Assembly (NCBI GenBank): GCA_007136585.1
Contig: SLGR01000221.1
Span: forward strand, 1 to 7,368
Length of the DNA: 7,368 nt
Reading direction: 5' to 3'
Source of the DNA: Candidatus Sumerlaeota bacterium
GTDB lineage: Bacteria > CG03 > SLGR01
Positions within the stretch are counted from its first letter, which is position 1. Every line of letters starts with the position of its first letter. Positions 107 to 7,253 of the stretch are shown here, one piece after another. The notes beneath the pieces were generated by a model that was not told the origin of the DNA, did no database searches, and saw only the letters and a list, made by a program, of their open reading frames with translations. Made by a program: the position numbers and the translations under genes.

Positions 107-475
107 TCAGTTCTTTAAGATAGAGGCCGCTGTATTTCGAAGAGTGTTTATATCCACGGGTTTTCCCAGAAAAGCCGCTACACCCTTCTCAAAGGCCGCT
201 TCTCTGTTTTCGGGGGTATCGTAGGCGGTTATCATCAGTATACCGCTCCGGGGTTTCATCTCTTTTACTTTCCCGGCAAATTCCATACCGTCAACCCCGG
301 GAAGCATAAGGTCGGTTATGATAAGATCGTAATCATTTTTACTCGCAAGCTCAAGGGCATCTTCCGCGGTTCCGGCAAGGTCTATATCCAAATCAAACTT
401 TCGTGAGAGTATCCTGCTGTAAACCGCCTGAACCTGTTTCTCGTCATCGAGTATAAGAACTTTTTTTCTTTTCAT
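107..475 (-). CDS. Stand-alone CheY-like response-regulator receiver protein
   Basis: This 122-residue protein is a single phosphoacceptor receiver domain with no output domain. The full catalytic set is visible: acidic pair D10/D11, phosphoacceptor D55 in TDLMLPG, switch Thr T83 (MITAY) and Lys K105 in the GKP motif. Known members of this family are phosphorylated by a histidine kinase and then bind a partner protein. No kinase lies in the window, so partner and pathway are unknown. The length matches a bare receiver fold (about 120 residues), so it is not a truncated larger regulator. The start is ATG at 475. The site upstream is a poor SD (GGTAA about 10 bases away) and no better in-frame start was seen. 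It is transcribed in the same direction as the regulator unit upstream but separated by 153 bases containing a terminator-like hairpin, so it probably has its own promoter. An AT-rich stretch at about 515-560 could hold it, though I could not assign clean hexamers. Confidence 0.93.
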   Translation of the reverse strand: MKRKKVLILDDEKQVQAVYSRILSRKFDLDIDLAGTAEDALELASKNDYDLIITDLMLPGVDGMEFAGKVKEMKPRSGILMITAYDTPENREAAFEKGVAAFLGKPVDINTLRNTAASILKN

Positions 476-552
476 ATGATGTTATTTACCATGTATCCCA
501 TTCCGGGGGATTCCTTACTTAAATATATACAACCTTAAAGTTTAAAACGTGT

Positions 553-584
553 CATACAAAAGTAACCGGTCTGTAACAGACCGG
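553..584 (-). terminator. Candidate intrinsic terminator of the 958-1626/629-961 unit
   Basis: A perfect inverted repeat, CCGGTCTGT-A-ACAGACCGG, lies at 566-584. As RNA it folds into an 8-bp GC-rich stem with a 3-base loop. On the minus strand it is followed by TTACTTTTG, a modest U-rich tail, and it sits 44 bases after the stop of the small exported protein. On the + strand no T-run follows, so any terminator function is for the minus strand. The interrupted U-tract makes it weaker than the terminator at 3011-3045. As 19-bp DNA with dyad symmetry it could instead be an operator for the receiver gene downstream. Confidence 0.55.
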
Positions 585-628: not shown

Positions 629-961
629 TTAGAATTTTACAACCAGGATGGTCATTCCGCCGAGCATCCCGGCCGCTATATCCCCCCAGTTGAAACCTGT
701 CCTGGGAATATCGTATATCTCTTTCCCGACAGAACAGACCAACACCAGTGAAAGCGAGTAGACCCAGGCGTCTTCCTCGCTGATATACTTCTTAAAGAAG
801 GGATAGGATAGATGAGATATAACCACACCGGCTGAAAAATGCACGTATTTATCCTTTTCCAGAGAGGCGAGCCGGTCAAAAATAGAGGCGTTTGCCGGGC
901 GGTGAAGGAAAAGAGAGAGAATCGCGATAAGGACTGAGCACCTGCGTTTAAAATCTCTCAT
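629..961 (-). CDS. Small exported/membrane protein, YfiM (DUF2279)-like
   Basis: A 110-residue protein with a basic N-terminus (RDFKRR) and a hydrophobic core at about 9-19, ending in a signal-peptidase-like ANA at 23-25. A DKYVHF motif follows at 37-42, then a hydrophobic helix (about 66-78), a GKEIYD motif at 79-84, GFNWGDIAAG at 89-98 and a final hydrophobic segment to the C-terminus. The DK-x-x-H, KE-x-x-D and D-x-x-A-G pattern resembles the small YfiM/DUF2279 lipoprotein-like family, whose function is unknown. This one has no clear lipobox, since C8 precedes the hydrophobic core. It probably sits in or at the outer face of the inner membrane. Its ATG overlaps the stop of the regulator upstream by four bases (ATGA, 958-961), implying coupled translation and perhaps physical partnership. 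Family assignment is from motif memory only. Confidence 0.75.
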   Translation of the reverse strand: MRDFKRRCSVLIAILSLFLHRPANASIFDRLASLEKDKYVHFSAGVVISHLSYPFFKKYISEEDAWVYSLSLVLVCSVGKEIYDIPRTGFNWGDIAAGMLGGMTILVVKF

Positions 962-1626
962 TCCCTGAAGGTATACCCGAACCCTTTTACAGTTTTTATA
1001 TACTTTGAAGATCCTGCTAATTTTTTCCTGAGCCGGGCCACGGCCATATCCACTGTCCGGGAAGCGCCTAAATAATCATAACCCCATACCCTGTCAAGAA
1101 GGTACTCCCGTGACAGCACCCTTCCTTTTTTAAGTATCAAAACCCAGAGAAGTTCAAACTCAATCGGAGTAAGCTCCGGATTTTTATCTCCCGCTATGAC
1201 TCTTTTTTCCGGATGGTTGACGGTTATTTCCTTAAAGGTCACCGCAGAAACCTTCCTGAGCCCCGATACTATATCCAAGAGATTACCCGCAGAATTTGAT
1301 ACCGGCTCCAGGTGCTGGGAGGGAAGTTTGCTAATCTCCTTTTTCAACTTCTCTGTCTCGCTGAGGATATCGGTTACAAGGGCATCAGTAAGCCTGGCGT
1401 ACCTGGTCTCCTCCTCAACGGCACCTCTCTGGAACTCCCGCATCCCCTCTACTATCCTGTCCAGGTTTATCAGGGCTATAAGAAGAAATATGACCAGGCT
1501 GGACATTATTATAGCTGCGGAGGCAAGAGAAGTGGTCCCCTGAAAGATAAGAATATTTATAACCGGAACGGCAAAAAGAAGCAGAAAGAAGATCCTCAGC
1601 TCGTTTTTCCTGTATGCTCTGTTCAA
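958..1626 (-). CDS. Membrane-anchored OmpR-type winged-helix transcription factor without receiver
   Basis: This 222-residue protein begins with two hydrophobic helices (about 12-28 and 34-53) joined by a short QGTTS turn. Basic residues before the first helix (R3, R6, K7, R11) and after the second (R57, R63, R67) predict both ends in the cytosol. A charged, helical, probably coiled linker follows (about 56-102). The C-terminal domain (about 130-222) is a PhoB/OmpR winged helix: TPIEFELLWVL, LLDRVWGYDY, recognition-helix signature RTVDMAVARLRKKL (190-203) and wing motif TVKGFGYTF (212-220). There is no receiver domain. ToxR/CadC-type one-component regulators also tether this DNA-binding fold to the membrane, but with the winged helix N-terminal and a periplasmic sensor C-terminal, so the order here is reversed. 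The start is a TTG at 1626, supported by a strong SD (GGGAGG, 5 bases away); the next Met is residue 41, inside TM2. Co-translated with the exported protein at 629-961. Target genes and signal are unknown. Confidence 0.9.
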   Translation of the reverse strand: MNRAYRKNELRIFFLLLFAVPVINILIFQGTTSLASAAIIMSSLVIFLLIALINLDRIVEGMREFQRGAVEEETRYARLTDALVTDILSETEKLKKEISKLPSQHLEPVSNSAGNLLDIVSGLRKVSAVTFKEITVNHPEKRVIAGDKNPELTPIEFELLWVLILKKGRVLSREYLLDRVWGYDYLGASRTVDMAVARLRKKLAGSSKYIKTVKGFGYTFRE

Positions 1627-1689
1627 AATTACCTCCCGCCCCGCTGAGACCGGGACAACCAGCCGGATGTTTCCGGAAAACTGATGAAT

Positions 1690-1717
1690 TCTATATTATT
1701 TTTCCACTTAAAATCAA
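1690..1717 (-). promoter_or_regulatory. Possible sigma-70-type promoter for the membrane regulator
   Basis: On the minus strand TTGATT (1712-1717) and TATAGA (1690-1695) are separated by 16 bases; each matches four of six consensus positions. A start site near 1683 would give a leader of about 57 bases to the TTG start at 1626. The -35 overlaps the last codons of the flavin-reductase gene, so read-through from that gene is an alternative route of expression. Confidence 0.3.
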
Positions 1718-2235
1718 TCCGGGCGTATTTCCCCGGATAGGCCGAACTCACTGAAAACAGAGTTTCCGGCGTTTAAGAGTGGAAGCTTATCGGGGTTTCC
1801 CGAGGCGGCAAGAACCTCTCCCGCGAAGACGGTATGGTCCCCGGTCTCGAACTCACCGGTTTTTCGGCATTCAAAACTTACCCGGCAACCTTCAACCAGG
1901 GGAAGCCTCAGTTTCCGGGATAAAACTCTCGGGATATTCTTCTTACTGAACTTCTCAACCTCTCTCCCCGAATGAGAGCCGCAGTATGAGATTATATCCT
2001 CCTGCCCCCTGACAGGGTAAGAGAGGATAAACCCGTCATATTTTTTTAAAAGCGCGTGAGTATGGCGGGTATGCCCCACAGAGACAACCATTATCGGAGG
2101 ATCAAACGAACTCCTCATAACCCACCCGGCCGGCATTATATTTACCTCATCCCCGATTCTCCCGGATATCAGCAGAACCGGATGCTCCGGCTTGGTATAA
2201 TTCGCAAACGCCTTTTTTACATCCAACTCCTTCAT
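1714..2235 (-). CDS. Flavin reductase-like FMN-binding split-barrel protein
   Basis: A 173-residue protein of the flavin reductase/flavoredoxin family (COG1853 type), cytosolic proteins that bind FMN and use it in NAD(P)H-dependent flavin reduction or electron transfer. Visible hallmarks are PVLLIS near 19-24, NIMPAGWVM at 32-40, SFDPPIMVVSVG at 43-54, the TRHTH segment at 56-60, FILSYP at 69-74, SGREVEKF at 89-96 and the GDHTVFAGEV motif at 132-141. The length is typical of the compact flavoredoxin-like members. The specific electron donor and acceptor cannot be told from sequence. The ATG at 2235 has no SD ahead of it, and its promoter places the predicted transcript start at the ATG itself, suggesting leaderless translation. 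It is divergent from the HAD phosphatase across 111 bases, and no operon partner is evident. Confidence 0.9.
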   Translation of the reverse strand: MKELDVKKAFANYTKPEHPVLLISGRIGDEVNIMPAGWVMRSSFDPPIMVVSVGHTRHTHALLKKYDGFILSYPVRGQEDIISYCGSHSGREVEKFSKKNIPRVLSRKLRLPLVEGCRVSFECRKTGEFETGDHTVFAGEVLAASGNPDKLPLLNAGNSVFSEFGLSGEIRPD

Positions 2236-2241
2236 ACGGGT

Positions 2242-2270
2242 ATCTTATTTGTTGAATTTCTCATTGTCAA
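2242..2270 (-). promoter_or_regulatory. Near-consensus sigma-70-type promoter of the flavin reductase gene
   Basis: On the minus strand a perfect TTGACA (2265-2270) is followed by exactly 17 bases and then TAAGAT (2242-2247, four of six matches to TATAAT). Only six bases separate the -10 from the ATG at 2235, so the expected start site falls on or next to the A of the start codon. Confidence 0.6.
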
Positions 2271-2284
2271 AGCAGCTTACGCGA

Positions 2285-2313
2285 TTGAATTTTTGCCTTA
2301 AATCCTTTAAGAT
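2285..2313 (+). promoter_or_regulatory. Probable promoter of the HAD phosphatase gene
   Basis: TTGAAT (2285-2290), a 17-base spacer and TAAGAT (2308-2313) form a sigma-70-like promoter with four of six matches in each hexamer. It would give a leader of roughly 27 bases containing the SD AAGGA (2338-2342). The same TAAGAT -10 is used by the divergent promoter. A 15-base dyad, CTTAAA-TCC-TTTAAG (2297-2311), overlaps the -10, but being AT-rich it may be chance. Confidence 0.45.
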
Positions 2314-2346
2314 AACCTGAATTCACCGTGAAGTTTCAAGGATATA

Positions 2347-3003
2347 ATGACCAAAACAGATAAAATCAGAACACTCGTATGGGACTTTAACGGAACCCTC
2401 GTAGACGATGCCCGGATCTCAGTTGAAAGCATAAACATAATGCTTAAAGACCGCGGACTCCCCGGCATATCCCTTGTAAAGTACCGCAGCCTCTTCTCAT
2501 TCCCCGTGAAGGATTATTACGAGAAAGCGGGGTTTGATTTCTCCAGGGAGAGTTTCTCTTCAGTGGGCAGGGAGTTCATATCCATATACACTTTGCTATT
2601 TCCCCGGGCCCGTATATTCCCGGAGGCGAAAAGACTTCTCCAGGTATTTAATGAACTCGGGATAGAACAGTTTGTCCTCTCCGCGATGGAGCAGGAGATG
2701 CTTGAAAGATCAATCCGCGATGCGGGCCTTGAGAGTTACTTCACAGAAGTCTCCGGCATAGATAACATATACGCTTCTTCAAAACTCAAGAACGGGAAGG
2801 ATCTCTTTAAACGCCGGGGACTGGAGGGCGAAAAAACCTGGATTATCGGGGATACTGTCCATGACTGGCAGGTGGCGGAAGAACTCGGATGCAGATGCCT
2901 ACTTATAGGCGCGGGACACCAGGATATCTCCTGCCTAAGGGAGACCGGGTGCCCTTATATACTCAAAGACCACTCAGAAATACCCCGGAGACTTAAATTC
3001 TGA
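2347..3003 (+). CDS. HAD-superfamily hydrolase, phosphoglycolate phosphatase-like
   Basis: A 218-residue cytosolic HAD-fold protein. Motif I is WDFNGTLVDD, with nucleophile D13. The helical cap domain covers about 20-85. Motif II is the Ser in VLSAM (S112), motif III is a Lys in SSKLKNGK (K146 or K148) and motif IV is GDTVHD (D169, D173) in a typical II-GD-x-x-x-D strand end. Length and order fit the Gph-like subgroup that removes phosphate from small metabolites. Substrate cannot be inferred. The usual second Asp of motif I (D-x-D), normally the general acid/base, is Asn (N15). Related W-x-N-G-T variants are known among bacterial HAD proteins, so activity may be altered but need not be lost. 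The ATG at 2347 has an upstream AAGGA at good spacing. It stands alone and is convergent with the porin gene. Its stop lies only a few bases before the terminator hairpin at 3018-3045. Confidence 0.9.
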   Translation: MTKTDKIRTLVWDFNGTLVDDARISVESINIMLKDRGLPGISLVKYRSLFSFPVKDYYEKAGFDFSRESFSSVGREFISIYTLLFPRARIFPEAKRLLQVFNELGIEQFVLSAMEQEMLERSIRDAGLESYFTEVSGIDNIYASSKLKNGKDLFKRRGLEGEKTWIIGDTVHDWQVAEELGCRCLLIGAGHQDISCLRETGCPYILKDHSEIPRRLKF

Positions 3004-3010
3004 TGTAAAT

Positions 3011-3045
3011 AAAAAAAGCTGCCCGGCGGTTAAAGGCCGGGCAGC
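3011..3045 (-). terminator. Strong intrinsic terminator of the Opu-porin operon
   Basis: A perfect 10-bp stem, GCTGCCCGGC with GCCGGGCAGC (3018-3027 and 3036-3045), closes an 8-base loop. On the minus strand it is followed directly by seven T residues (complement of A 3011-3017). This is a canonical intrinsic terminator 30 bases after the porin stop. Read on the + strand, the hairpin follows the HAD gene but has no T-run after it, so it would terminate that transcript poorly while perhaps still protecting its 3' end. Confidence 0.93.
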
Positions 3046-3075
3046 AGTAGTTCTTCGCTTACCTTAAGTAGCGGT

Positions 3076-4251
3076 TTAGAAGTTCACCGCGTATTCAAGA
3101 GCAGCAAAGTTTGTGTTGTCCACGCCACTTGCTTCAGGCATAAACTGGCTGTATGTCACGAAAACATTGCTTGTGCCGTTTATGGCGTAATTAAGTTTTA
3201 CGCCCAGCTCGTCTCCGATGTCATCGCCGTTTGCTTCATCGGCCAGCATATAGTAGTGAGCCATGAATGTGACGTCACTCAGCGGATTGAAGCTGAATCC
3301 CGTACCAATTGCTTCCAGGTTTTGAATTGTACCGAAAGTCACCGCAGATCCAAATGCGTCAAGATAGTAATCATACCAGAACGTATCTATGACATATCCG
3401 TACATTGTGGCCGAACCGAAGTTTTCCGTGGCCAGAAGGTAATCGGCTTTCAGCGAAAGGCCGCTTAAATCAAGCAGGTCATAGTTAAGCCCGACATAAA
3501 GAAGAGACTCGTCATAGTCATCACCCGCTGAATCACTGCCGTTCTGCATTACATACTCGGCATAGTGACGGATATCACCGAATCCGCCCTGCGCGAATAA
3601 TCCGATGAAATCTTTCTGGTCGCTTTCGGGTTGGCCTTCGGCACTATTATAGTCAGCAATATAGTAGCCAGTCAGGTCGGTCACCGGAAGCGAATACGAA
3701 GCCGTTACACCGGTTTTGTGCTCCTTGCCATATGTTCCGTCAAGGGCCCAGTCGGCATCCCCTAACCTGTAATGAAGAGCGCTCAGGCTAAGATCATCGT
3801 AGCTGTAAGACGCCTTTAATCCGTCAAGGCCGGCCCAGTCCGATGTGAGGACAAAACCGCGGCCCAGGAATATGTTCTGGCGGCCGATCGTCAGATCCAG
3901 GTTCTCGGTGAGAAGGTCGGATATTGTCACATATCCCTGCTGGAGTTTAAACGATCTTCCGTTTGTCGCGGGCCTCCAGCCGGTATCTCCCATTGTGTTC
4001 TCAAACTCGGCCACGATGTTTACGTATACATTGTCCGAAACATCTCCGTCCAATCCGAGATGAATCCTGTTTCTCATGAACTCGCTGTCGCCTGGAAGCC
4101 AAGTGCCGGTGCCATCATCCAGTAATACGTTCTCCATCATCTGCCAGCGCAGCCGGTACTGCCCTGTGAAATTCAGGTCTTCCAGGTCAAAAGCGTAGCC
4201 GCTCGCGGTAAGACCCAGCATAACAAGCAGTGCAATTACCTTGCTCTTCAT
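3076..4251 (-). CDS. Outer-membrane beta-barrel porin, alginate-export-like
   Basis: A 391-residue protein with a signal peptide (MKSKVIALLVML, cleavage probably after SGYA near residue 20) and a mature part made of alternating-residue amphipathic strands rich in Tyr, Phe, Trp, Gly and Asp. It begins FTGQYRLRWQ and ends with a terminal strand finishing in Phe (EYAVNF), the usual signal for the outer-membrane assembly (BAM) machinery. The opening strand, the MRNRIHLGL segment and LTIGRQNIFLGRGF near 120-133 recall the alginate-export porin family (PF13372-like). That family is broad and does not imply alginate export here. The loops are acidic. The ATG at 4251 has a strong SD (AGGAGG, 5 bases). 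It lies 54 bases after the binding-lipoprotein gene and is followed by the operon terminator, so it is most likely the last gene of the osmoprotectant operon and may admit those solutes through the outer membrane. The solute specificity is an inference. Confidence 0.85.
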   Translation of the reverse strand: MKSKVIALLVMLGLTASGYAFDLEDLNFTGQYRLRWQMMENVLLDDGTGTWLPGDSEFMRNRIHLGLDGDVSDNVYVNIVAEFENTMGDTGWRPATNGRSFKLQQGYVTISDLLTENLDLTIGRQNIFLGRGFVLTSDWAGLDGLKASYSYDDLSLSALHYRLGDADWALDGTYGKEHKTGVTASYSLPVTDLTGYYIADYNSAEGQPESDQKDFIGLFAQGGFGDIRHYAEYVMQNGSDSAGDDYDESLLYVGLNYDLLDLSGLSLKADYLLATENFGSATMYGYVIDTFWYDYYLDAFGSAVTFGTIQNLEAIGTGFSFNPLSDVTFMAHYYMLADEANGDDIGDELGVKLNYAINGTSNVFVTYSQFMPEASGVDNTNFAALEYAVNF

Positions 4252-4305
4252 ACATTCCTCCTTTTAATATCCAACAACACTCTATTGTTTTCTTTATTTA
4301 GCAAA

Positions 4306-5160
4306 TTACTGCAGCCACTGATCTACTACGTCCGAATTTTCGTTTATCCATCTCACAGCTGTCTCATAGGGATCGGCTCCCACTTCCTCGTTCCATGCCA
4401 TAACAGTGTGCAGGTCATCGGGAGTCCAGAAGAAATTGTCCAGGAAATTGTAAACTTCAGGCATATCCTCTTCCAGTCCCTGACGAACAATCGTATGTAT
4501 GTATTCTTCTCCGCCGTAAATACCCCTTGGATCCTCCAGATATTTCAGATCCCACTCGCCAAATTTCCAGTGGGGGGTCCAGCCGGTGACAACCACCCAT
4601 TCATTATTATTTACAGCATCCGAGAGAGCTCCTGCCATAGTCGCGCCACTTCCCTCTACAAGGGTAAACTCATCAAGTTCGTAGGTCTCGATAGCTTCTT
4701 CGGTAGCGCTCATTATACCCGCGCCGGGATCTATGCCTATTATCTCATTGCCAAACCTTTCAGCACTGGCCTTTAACTCTTCAATTGAATCAATATCCAC
4801 ATAATCCGGAACAACCAGCCCTATTCTCGTGCCTTCAAGGTTCGGGCCCAGGTCGATCACCCTGTCCCTGACTTCTTCCAGATAATGACCGTGAGTTGTC
4901 TCAAGCCAGGCGCAGTTGATCGCATCCACATCCCCGGCCGCTACGGCTGTCCACATTGCGGCTGCCGATACCGATATAATCTCCGTATCGTACCCAAGTC
5001 TTTCCTGAATCACGGCTTTTGCCACGTTTGTCCCCGCGGTAGCGCAGGCCCACTCAACATAGCCTAGTTCAACCGTATCTCTCTCAGGAGCGGCGCAGCT
5101 AAGCGCCCCGGCAGCGATAAGCGCCGCCGTGATACCGGCAAGAAACTGTTTTAAATTCAT
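4306..5160 (-). CDS. opuAC: Glycine/proline betaine-type ABC substrate-binding lipoprotein (OpuAC/ProX family)
   Basis: Counted from the ATG at 5160, this is a 284-residue lipoprotein. A short Lys-containing start and hydrophobic core end in the lipobox ALSC, so C22 would be lipidated and the protein tethered at the periplasmic face. The mature part matches the OpuAC/ProX type II binding fold: VEWACATAGTNVAKAVI with GYDTEII, MWTAVAAGDVDAINCAWLETTHGHY, the GIDPGAGIM turn, WVVVTGWTPHWKF and FFWTPDDL. Members hold the quaternary ammonium head of betaines in a cage of Trp side chains, and several Trp are available here (W37, W62, W77 and those in GWTPHWKF). Exact cage residues are not assigned. 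A TTG at 5202 would add 14 residues but has no SD, whereas the 5160 ATG has GGAGG 6 bases upstream and gives a normal signal peptide. It is separated from the permease gene by 75 bases and from the porin gene by 54. The very acidic mature protein is consistent with an extracytoplasmic role. Confidence 0.93.
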   Translation of the reverse strand: MNLKQFLAGITAALIAAGALSCAAPERDTVELGYVEWACATAGTNVAKAVIQERLGYDTEIISVSAAAMWTAVAAGDVDAINCAWLETTHGHYLEEVRDRVIDLGPNLEGTRIGLVVPDYVDIDSIEELKASAERFGNEIIGIDPGAGIMSATEEAIETYELDEFTLVEGSGATMAGALSDAVNNNEWVVVTGWTPHWKFGEWDLKYLEDPRGIYGGEEYIHTIVRQGLEEDMPEVYNFLDNFFWTPDDLHTVMAWNEEVGADPYETAVRWINENSDVVDQWLQ

Positions 5161-5212
5161 TACAATCCTCCTCTTCCATTCTAACACCAACTTTTTTACC
5201 AAATTTTTCTGA

Positions 5213-5236
5213 GAATGAAGCAGTAACGCTTCTTTC
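5213..5236 (-). other. Weak hairpin between permease and binding-protein genes
   Basis: GAATGAAGC (5213-5221) pairs with GCTTCTTTC (5228-5236) with a single mismatch around a 6-base loop. It lies right at the permease stop codon and is not followed by a U-tract on the minus strand, so it is not a terminator. Such intercistronic stems can protect upstream mRNA ends and raise binding-protein output, but this one is AT-rich and may be incidental. Confidence 0.3.
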
Positions 5237-6057
5237 TATTTTTTACCGACAATATTCTGAGTCAGCCTGTCAAATATCATTGCCAGAATAACAATGGCGA
5301 TACCTGCTTCAAACCCCATTCCCATCTCAAGACGCTGTATTGCCCTCCAGACAACCCCGCCGAGCCCCCCGGCGCCTATCATTGCCGCTATAACCACCAT
5401 TGAGAGCGCCAGCATTATGGTCTGGTTTATCCCCCCCAATATAGTAGGAGCCGCAAGGGGAAGCTGGACCTTTAAAAGCTTCTGCATCGTGGTGGAACCG
5501 AAGGCATCAGCAGCCTCTATAAGATCTTCCGGAAGCTGTCTGATGCCCAGGGCCGTGAACCGTATTGAAGGCGGGATTGAGAATATCACCGTAGCAAAAA
5601 CGGCTGCCACCTTACCCAGGCCGAAAAAAGGAATAGCCGGGATAAGATACACAAATGCGGGCATGGTCTGCATAAAATCAAGCACCGGGGTTATCAGCCG
5701 GTAAAACCTGTCATTTAAGGCCGCAATAATTCCTAGTGGAAGGCCAAGTACAATCGCGATAAAGGTTGAGGCTACAACCAGGGCAAAAGTTGACACCGTA
5801 GGCTCCCAGAGCCCAAAACTCCATATAAGAAGAAGTCCCAGAATGGATAAAATGCCGCCTTTAAGTGAGATAACCTTCCAGGACAGAAACCCCACCAGAA
5901 GTATTATCACCCAGAAAGGGAGGAATTCCAGGAAATCTATCATATAACTTATCAGTATATCAACAAAACCTGAGAAAGCCCTTGTAGCCCCCGCAAAATT
6001 AATTGTCAGGAAATCTATCCCCCCTTCTATCCATCTTCCAAGAGGTATACTATTCAT
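5236..6057 (-). CDS. opuAB: Osmoprotectant ABC transporter permease (OpuAB/ProW family)
   Basis: A 273-residue inner-membrane protein. The N-terminal region (about 1-45) precedes hydrophobic segments near 46-60, 66-84, 88-113, 132-160, 203-228 and 250-264. The core contains the permease coupling (EAA) motif E181-A-A-D-A-F-G187 with LP at 199-200, which docks onto the ATPase. QTMPAFVYLIPAIPFFGLG (130-148) and GAGGLGGVVW are characteristic of ProW/OpuAB-type betaine permeases. Length agrees with OpuAB and is shorter than enteric ProW, which has a longer N-terminal tail. The start codon overlaps the stop of the ATPase gene by four bases (ATGA, 6054-6057), so the two subunits are likely made in step. 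Two copies would pair with two ATPases in the importer. Confidence 0.94.
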   Translation of the reverse strand: MNSIPLGRWIEGGIDFLTINFAGATRAFSGFVDILISYMIDFLEFLPFWVIILLVGFLSWKVISLKGGILSILGLLLIWSFGLWEPTVSTFALVVASTFIAIVLGLPLGIIAALNDRFYRLITPVLDFMQTMPAFVYLIPAIPFFGLGKVAAVFATVIFSIPPSIRFTALGIRQLPEDLIEAADAFGSTTMQKLLKVQLPLAAPTILGGINQTIMLALSMVVIAAMIGAGGLGGVVWRAIQRLEMGMGFEAGIAIVILAMIFDRLTQNIVGKK

Positions 6058-7253
6058 GAGAAATTACCGCTTTCGGCAAGCCCAGCAATTATAGAACCCC
6101 GCACTACAATACCTTTCAGTATATTATTCTCATCAATTACAGCTATGGGATAACGGTTGTCTACTATAACCTGAAAAAGATTGCGCACCTGCATATCCAG
6201 ACCGACTTTCTGTTTCTCGTACTTTTCTATTATCTCTGATATATTTTTTTTGCCTTCTCGAGCATAATCACCGGCTTTTTCGGCGGTAACATATCCTACA
6301 AGTTTATGTTCGGCATCCACAATAAATATTCCGGAGAGTCCTTCTTTACGCATTTTGTGAAGGAGCGTAACCGGCCCGTCCTTTATGAACCCCGTAGTTT
6401 TCGGGGTTACCATAACATCGGAAGCCGTAAGAACTTTGGTAAAATCCACATTTTCCACAAACTTTTTAACATAAGTATTCTCGGGTCTGGTGAGTATATC
6501 CTCAGGAGTCCCTATCTGAACGATCCTTCCGTCCTTCATCAGGATAACCCTGTCTCCCATCTTAAGAGCTTCGTCCAGGTCATGGGTAATGAAGAGAATT
6601 GTTTTATGCACCTTGGACTGCAGTTCGATAAGTTCGTCCTGCATCTCAGTCCTTATAAGCGGATCAAGAGCGCTGAACGCCTCATCCATAAGAAGTATTT
6701 CGGGGTTTATGGCAAGAGCCCTGGCCAATCCGACACGCTGCTGCATCCCGCCGCTGAGCTGCCCCGGGTACGATTTTTCCCAACCTTCCAGTCCAACCAG
6801 TTTAAGGGCGTCACGGGCGCTTTTCACCTGGCGTTCCCTGGAAAGTTTTCTTACTGAAAGTCCATACGCGGCGTTCTCAAGTATTGTCTTATGGGGAAAC
6901 AGAGCAAAGCGCTGAAAAACCATTCCGAACTTATTCCGTCTCATAAGCCGGAGCTCTTCTTCCGGGGCTGTTGAAATATCATAACCGTCAATCATAACCT
7001 GACCCTTTGTGGGCTTAATAAGACGGTTTATGCACCTGAGAAGCGTTGATTTTCCGCTTCCGGAGAGTCCCATAACAACCAATAACTCTCCCTCACGGAC
7101 ATCAAAGTTTGCCTCGGCCACTCCCACCCCGCATTTTGTTCTTGAGAGTATCTCATTATTAGGGATCCCGCTTTTGAGAAGATCAAGAGCTTCTTTGGAT
7201 CTGGGCCCGAATATTTTATAAAGGTCTCTTACTTTTATTTTTGTTTTGGGCAT
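6054..7253 (-). CDS. opuAA: Osmoprotectant ABC transporter ATPase with tandem CBS domains (OpuAA/ProV family)
   Basis: A 399-residue cytosolic ATPase that powers betaine uptake. The ABC domain holds Walker A GLSGSGKST (62-70), the Q-loop in FQRFALFPH (Q114), signature LSGGMQQR (166-173), Walker B ILLMDE (186-191), the D-loop SALD and switch His H224. The N-terminal extension, including GPRSKEALDLL (16-26), is typical of ProV/OpuAA rather than of other ABC ATPases. From about residue 276 to the end are two CBS domains (about 276-331 and 340-395). In OpuA-type transporters these sense ionic strength or bind cyclic di-AMP; which applies here is not shown by sequence. It is the first gene of the operon. 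The ATG at 7253 has only a weak SD (GGTAA), and 75 bases upstream separate it from the divergent gene at 7329. That gap holds an 18-bp palindrome. Confidence 0.96.
   Translation of the reverse strand: MPKTKIKVRDLYKIFGPRSKEALDLLKSGIPNNEILSRTKCGVGVAEANFDVREGELLVVMGLSGSGKSTLLRCINRLIKPTKGQVMIDGYDISTAPEEELRLMRRNKFGMVFQRFALFPHKTILENAAYGLSVRKLSRERQVKSARDALKLVGLEGWEKSYPGQLSGGMQQRVGLARALAINPEILLMDEAFSALDPLIRTEMQDELIELQSKVHKTILFITHDLDEALKMGDRVILMKDGRIVQIGTPEDILTRPENTYVKKFVENVDFTKVLTASDVMVTPKTTGFIKDGPVTLLHKMRKEGLSGIFIVDAEHKLVGYVTAEKAGDYAREGKKNISEIIEKYEKQKVGLDMQVRNLFQVIVDNRYPIAVIDENNILKGIVVRGSIIAGLAESGNFS

Follow-up and report, generated by a model that had tools for sequence, protein, structure and literature searches.

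A membrane-anchored winged-helix regulator, its neighbouring stand-alone receiver and an operator-like repeat: a candidate intramembrane-sensing circuit

We analyzed a 7,368-nt stretch of DNA (the window) from a 1.88 Mb draft genome of a small phylum, 16 genomes of which were searched. The following features, all on the minus strand, were located in its first part.

107..475, minus strand: stand-alone CheY-like receiver, 122 aa (Pfam PF00072)
524..529, minus strand: -10-like box TATATA (read off by index)
562..579, minus strand: operator-like direct repeat CTGTTACAGACCGGTTAC, 11-bp spacing, upstream of the receiver (sole exact match in the genome)
629..961, minus strand: gene of a small YfiM-like envelope protein (weak NCBIfam YfiM match, E 5.5e-5, far under the cut-off)
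958..1626, minus strand: membrane-anchored winged-helix regulator, 222 aa, TTG start (ORF list, Pfam, orthologues L004:1486-2160 and L005:1492-2166)
964..1239, minus strand: OmpR/PhoB-type winged helix of the regulator, residues ~130-221 (Pfam PF00486, structure match)
1240..1461, minus strand: helical linker, residues ~56-129 (AlphaFold2 model)
1462..1593, minus strand: two-helix membrane hairpin, residues ~12-55 (hydropathy, charge, conservation)

The regulator reading frame was intact, and a GGGAGG-type ribosome site preceded the TTG start. The start of the YfiM-like gene overlapped the regulator stop by 4 bp, and the two genes are likely co-translated; in the two relatives described below, no YfiM-like gene separates the regulator from the receiver. 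Elsewhere in the window, positions 3076-7253 (minus strand) hold a complete ProU/choline-type ABC uptake set (ATPase with a CBS domain, permease and OpuAC binding protein), followed by a porin-like outer-membrane protein. Neither Rfam families nor tRNA were detected within the window.

Trans_reg_C (PF00486; residues 149-220, E 1.9e-25) was the sole Pfam domain in the regulator. It is the DNA-binding domain of OmpR/PhoB response regulators, here without the N-terminal receiver that those proteins carry in the same chain. The closest structural relatives of the winged helix were VicR/WalR (YycF; Z 17.6) and DNA-bound PhoB (Z 17.4), with the top matches in the range 17.6-17.0; the closest solved winged helices shared 36-43% identity at rmsd 1.1-2.1. 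DNA-bound ToxR also matched the winged helix, with Z 13.7. The leading rows of the fold comparison all covered the winged helix, and the linker and hairpin lay outside them. Hydropathy, Pfam, the AlphaFold2 model and the orthologues agreed on an N-terminal hairpin, a cytosolic helical linker and a C-terminal winged helix, the architecture read in an earlier note on this DNA.

The two hydrophobic segments begin near residues 10 and 35 (Kyte-Doolittle 19-residue means of 2.57 and 2.71). The loop of the hairpin, GTTSLA, has ~6 residues and no charge, so there is almost no periplasmic region, as had been proposed. Four Lys/Arg residues at the N-terminus and four in the stretch following TM2, together with the uncharged loop, indicate an N-in/C-in topology. 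The best hydropathy of the regulator was matched by 16 of 2000 shuffles, and that of the orthologues by 4-5 of 2000. Full-length orthologues with the hairpin retained (54-56% identity over residues 6-222) were found in genomes G004 and G006, which belong to another family of the same order as the host; all three genomes are drafts.

The TTG codon at the start of the regulator might suggest an artefact of translation, with the true start downstream of the helices and a soluble winged-helix protein as the product. However, both orthologues start at an ATG in the equivalent place, and an in-frame stop lies one codon before it. This argues against a downstream start, and at the codon level the hairpin was better conserved than any other part. 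We regard such an artefact as barely credible. Between our regulator and L004, identity reached 73% in the hairpin and 66% in the winged helix, and dropped to 34% in the linker (32-34% for the linker between families). The dN/dS values for L004 versus L005 were ~0.05, 0.12 and 0.24 for the hairpin, winged helix and linker, respectively. Conservation at both levels indicates that the hairpin is translated and is the most constrained region, apparently more than expected of a mere anchor. The earlier note proposed that the signal is sensed within the membrane, through a partner protein or by the linker. Purifying selection acts most strongly on the hairpin, in keeping with an input read inside the bilayer or from a membrane partner.

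A profile search of 290 genomes with the N-terminal part returned no further convincing relatives; the rest, at E 0.001 or worse, were taken as noise. In a contig scan of one genome per species with the full regulator protein, the matches listed were to the winged helix only. Among 127 winged-helix ORFs of the retrieved loci, the N-terminal transmembrane hairpin was confined to this family, and no membrane-anchored form was found in two Saprospiraceae genomes. This rarity applies to the genomes searched.

The earlier note described a regulator with no receiver. This holds for the polypeptide, in which the Pfam scan gave no Response_reg match, but a receiver gene lies ~480 bp downstream on the same strand. 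Both this conserved, trans-encoded receiver and the operator-like repeats in its promoter had been missed. The acidic pair, the phospho-acceptor Asp, the Thr/Ser and the Lys are all kept in the receiver, as read from the translations. In each of the three genomes, the regulator is followed downstream, on its own strand, by a single-domain receiver (107-475 in the window, 2309-2680 in L004 and 952-1323 in L005). With the window's receiver as query, G004 gave 43 receiver matches and G006 gave 17; in both, the regulator-adjacent receiver ranked first (97 bits in G004, next 62; 88 bits in G006, next 66). A profile of the three receivers found no comparable orthologue in the 13 genomes lacking the regulator, where the best score was 90 bits (a 568-aa frame) versus 203-225 bits. 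Stand-alone receivers and those of hybrid kinases were closer to this receiver than most OmpR-type ones were; hence it is not just an OmpR receiver that became detached. As for conserved neighbours, only the receiver recurs beside the regulator: the pair is flanked by a flavin reductase and the YfiM-like gene in the window, and by a TPR/HEAT protein and V-ATPase genes in the relatives. Because the flanking genes differ between families, the regulator-receiver pair stands out as the conserved unit.

Another arrangement of a receiver was seen at locus L228, where the frame at 1202-1783 (plus strand) appears, from its translation, to be a response regulator of reversed order (N-terminal MerR-like helix-turn-helix, C-terminal receiver) adjoining a histidine kinase. 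At 1780-5844 (plus strand), a frame encodes a Kelch-repeat protein of 1354 aa. Its C-terminus weakly resembles a type IX secretion-like sorting tail (Por_Secre_tail, E 3e-4, below the cut-off), a match hinting at type IX-like secretion in this phylum.

The AlphaFold2 model of the regulator comprised helices 3-28, 34-99 and 103-127, followed by the winged helix, with a mean pLDDT of 86.8; its alignment was enriched with 48 winged-helix segments, and the N-terminal half rests on three sequences. With the three sequences alone, pLDDT was 47.8, and a fold search with that model gave no matches. In the enriched model, the linker helix is continuous with TM2 up to residue 99; after a turn comes helix 103-127. 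The linker is thus predicted, from those three sequences, as a helical hairpin, as in DHp domains. By eye, the linker looked like a DHp domain lacking its histidine, but profile tests did not support an origin from a histidine kinase: hhalign gave a probability of 4.8% against 39 DHp segments, the HMM scores were reached by 1-16% of shuffled linkers, and the Pfam scan (E up to 10) found no HisKA in the regulator.

The same results bear on a receiver-gated regulator, in which the receiver would dock on the linker as a histidine-less, DHp-like platform and a response regulator would be split over two chains, one of them in the membrane. The conserved pairing, the predicted helical hairpin and the retained phosphorylation residues are in its favor. 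We nevertheless consider it distinctly unlikely in view of the low hhalign probability, the HMM scores within the range of shuffled linkers, and a receiver that is nearer to stand-alone and hybrid-kinase types than to most OmpR-type ones.

Upstream of the receiver, TGTTACA-like half-sites form direct repeats with 11-bp spacing in all three genomes. They read CTGTTACAGAC CGGTTACTTTT GTATGACACGT in the window, CTGTTACAAAA GCGTTACAGTA ATGTTTCCTTT CTGTTAAACCC in L004 and CTGTTACACCA ATGTTACAGTA AAGTTGCCTAT CTGTTAAACGC in L005; in the window, the later (third and fourth) repeats are weaker. In all three receiver promoters, no other repeat period was as strong as a lag of 11, and a -10-like box (TATACT, TATAAT or TATATA) begins exactly 50 nt past the element's first base. 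The repeat match between families was 13/13, a value reached by none of 400 shuffles of the window's promoter region. The pattern CTGTTACA-N5-GTTAC had three exact matches in the 16 genomes, all between regulator and receiver, and TGTTAC-N6-GTTAC occurred once in each of the three genomes. As the first pattern was drawn up with the three sites in view, only its absence elsewhere, not its presence at them, counts as independent evidence; the strong points are therefore that absence and the fixed geometry. The search for a wider regulon in the 16 genomes gave no convincing further site, single-mismatch matches being no more frequent than with the reversed control pattern, and no site was found upstream of the regulator gene itself. 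In the window, the repeat lies partly inside a perfect stem, CCGGTCTGTTACAGACCGG (566-584, minus strand). This stem, absent from the relatives, was scored as a terminator as well.

The direct repeat conserved at the receiver promoter is a candidate operator of the OmpR/PhoB type for the regulator. Its sequence agrees with TGTWAHA-N4-TGTWAHA, the consensus for VicR, and is similar to the PhoB box (PMC4168254). The fit to the WalR/VicR consensus is as expected, since WalR/VicR and PhoB are the closest structural relatives of the winged helix. Some 9 nt separate the end of the repeats from the downstream -10 box in the two relatives. PhoB-type promoters have a similar layout, and for this reason the regulator is probably an activator of the receiver gene.

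An ordinary tethered regulator must also be weighed, with the hairpin as a passive anchor, the receiver as a functionally unlinked neighbour, and another OmpR-type response regulator binding the repeats. G000 and G004 each encode another OmpR-type regulator that could bind the site, flanking genes differ between families, and the YfiM-like gene intervenes between regulator and receiver in the window, with the repeat within the terminator-like stem. We counted the other regulators and the intervening gene and stem against our main reading as well, along with the sample of only three genomes, two of them of one genus. On the other side, a passive anchor is not expected to outdo the DNA-binding domain in conservation, receiver, regulator and unique repeat occur together in 3 of 3 genomes and in 0 of the other 13, and in G006, which is 82% complete, no second winged-helix match of this kind was found. 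We therefore consider the ordinary tethered regulator unlikely.

The reading that we favor, with moderate confidence, is that of an intramembrane-sensing, transmembrane one-component regulator that is wired to, and controls, a trans-encoded receiver gene. The hairpin would read the state of a lipid, the bilayer or a membrane partner. TM2 would relay the change through the continuous helix to the linker; because TM2 runs on into the linker helix, it could set the geometry of the dimer. Two or more paired winged helices would then bind the repeats and switch the receiver gene, and the receiver may carry the signal into the histidine-kinase network of the cell or feed back on the regulator. A bolder version, a response regulator split across the membrane, has the hairpin reading the bilayer and the receiver, made only on the regulator's command, docking on the linker and gating it. 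We find it very doubtful; if true, it would join one-component intramembrane sensing with phosphosignalling.

Transmembrane regulators are abundant, yet few of them are characterized, and targets are known for only a minority. Here, one small locus suggests a sensor, a partner and a probable binding site from sequence alone, and so offers a compact, testable signalling circuit. Such a circuit would link one-component sensing to a two-component receiver, and so minimal a system would make sensing in the bilayer and action from the membrane directly testable.

With a DNA-binding domain and at least one transmembrane segment in one chain, the protein falls under the definition of transmembrane transcription regulators, of which a 2023 survey counted 50,302, 17% with two transmembrane segments (PMC10269533). 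Like ToxR and CadC, it is a membrane-held OmpR-type winged helix without a receiver. In those proteins, however, the winged helix is N-terminal, the transmembrane segment is single and a periplasmic domain is C-terminal, whereas our regulator has the opposite order, as the earlier note recognized, with two transmembrane helices and no periplasmic domain, and lies outside the ToxR/CadC family.

The further claim that this order by itself defines a distinct class was not supported, given the abundance of transmembrane regulators and the existence of the same order in Bacteroidia. An uncharacterized family there (L230-L237; 8 of 80 genomes searched) has an N-terminal anchor, a periplasmic domain, a transmembrane segment and a C-terminal Trans_reg_C, and is likewise membrane-first, winged-helix-last and receiver-less. 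It was recovered with a composed bait sequence, and the evidence consists only of the retrieved genomic sequences. Its members are 287-307 aa long with a periplasmic region of ~130 residues, in contrast to our ~6-residue loop, and outside the winged helix no similarity between the two families was apparent. The periplasmic region of the Bacteroidia proteins has recurring IGHxxLL and CY motifs. In the open-access literature searched, we found no published description of the hairpin, linker and C-terminal winged helix architecture, nor of the minimal hairpin form together with a receiver encoded in trans and an operator-like site that is unique in the genome.

With the OmpR/PhoB response regulators (WalR/VicR, PhoB), our regulator shares the DNA-binding domain, and its candidate operator is a direct repeat of the kind they use. 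Those proteins are soluble and carry an N-terminal receiver, in place of which our regulator has the hairpin and linker. The input resembles that of the intramembrane-sensing kinases SaeS, LiaS and BceS, namely two transmembrane helices and a very short loop; SaeS shows that two such helices with a loop of 9 residues are enough for sensing (PMC4388633). Whereas the output of these proteins is a kinase, that of our regulator is a DNA-binding domain.
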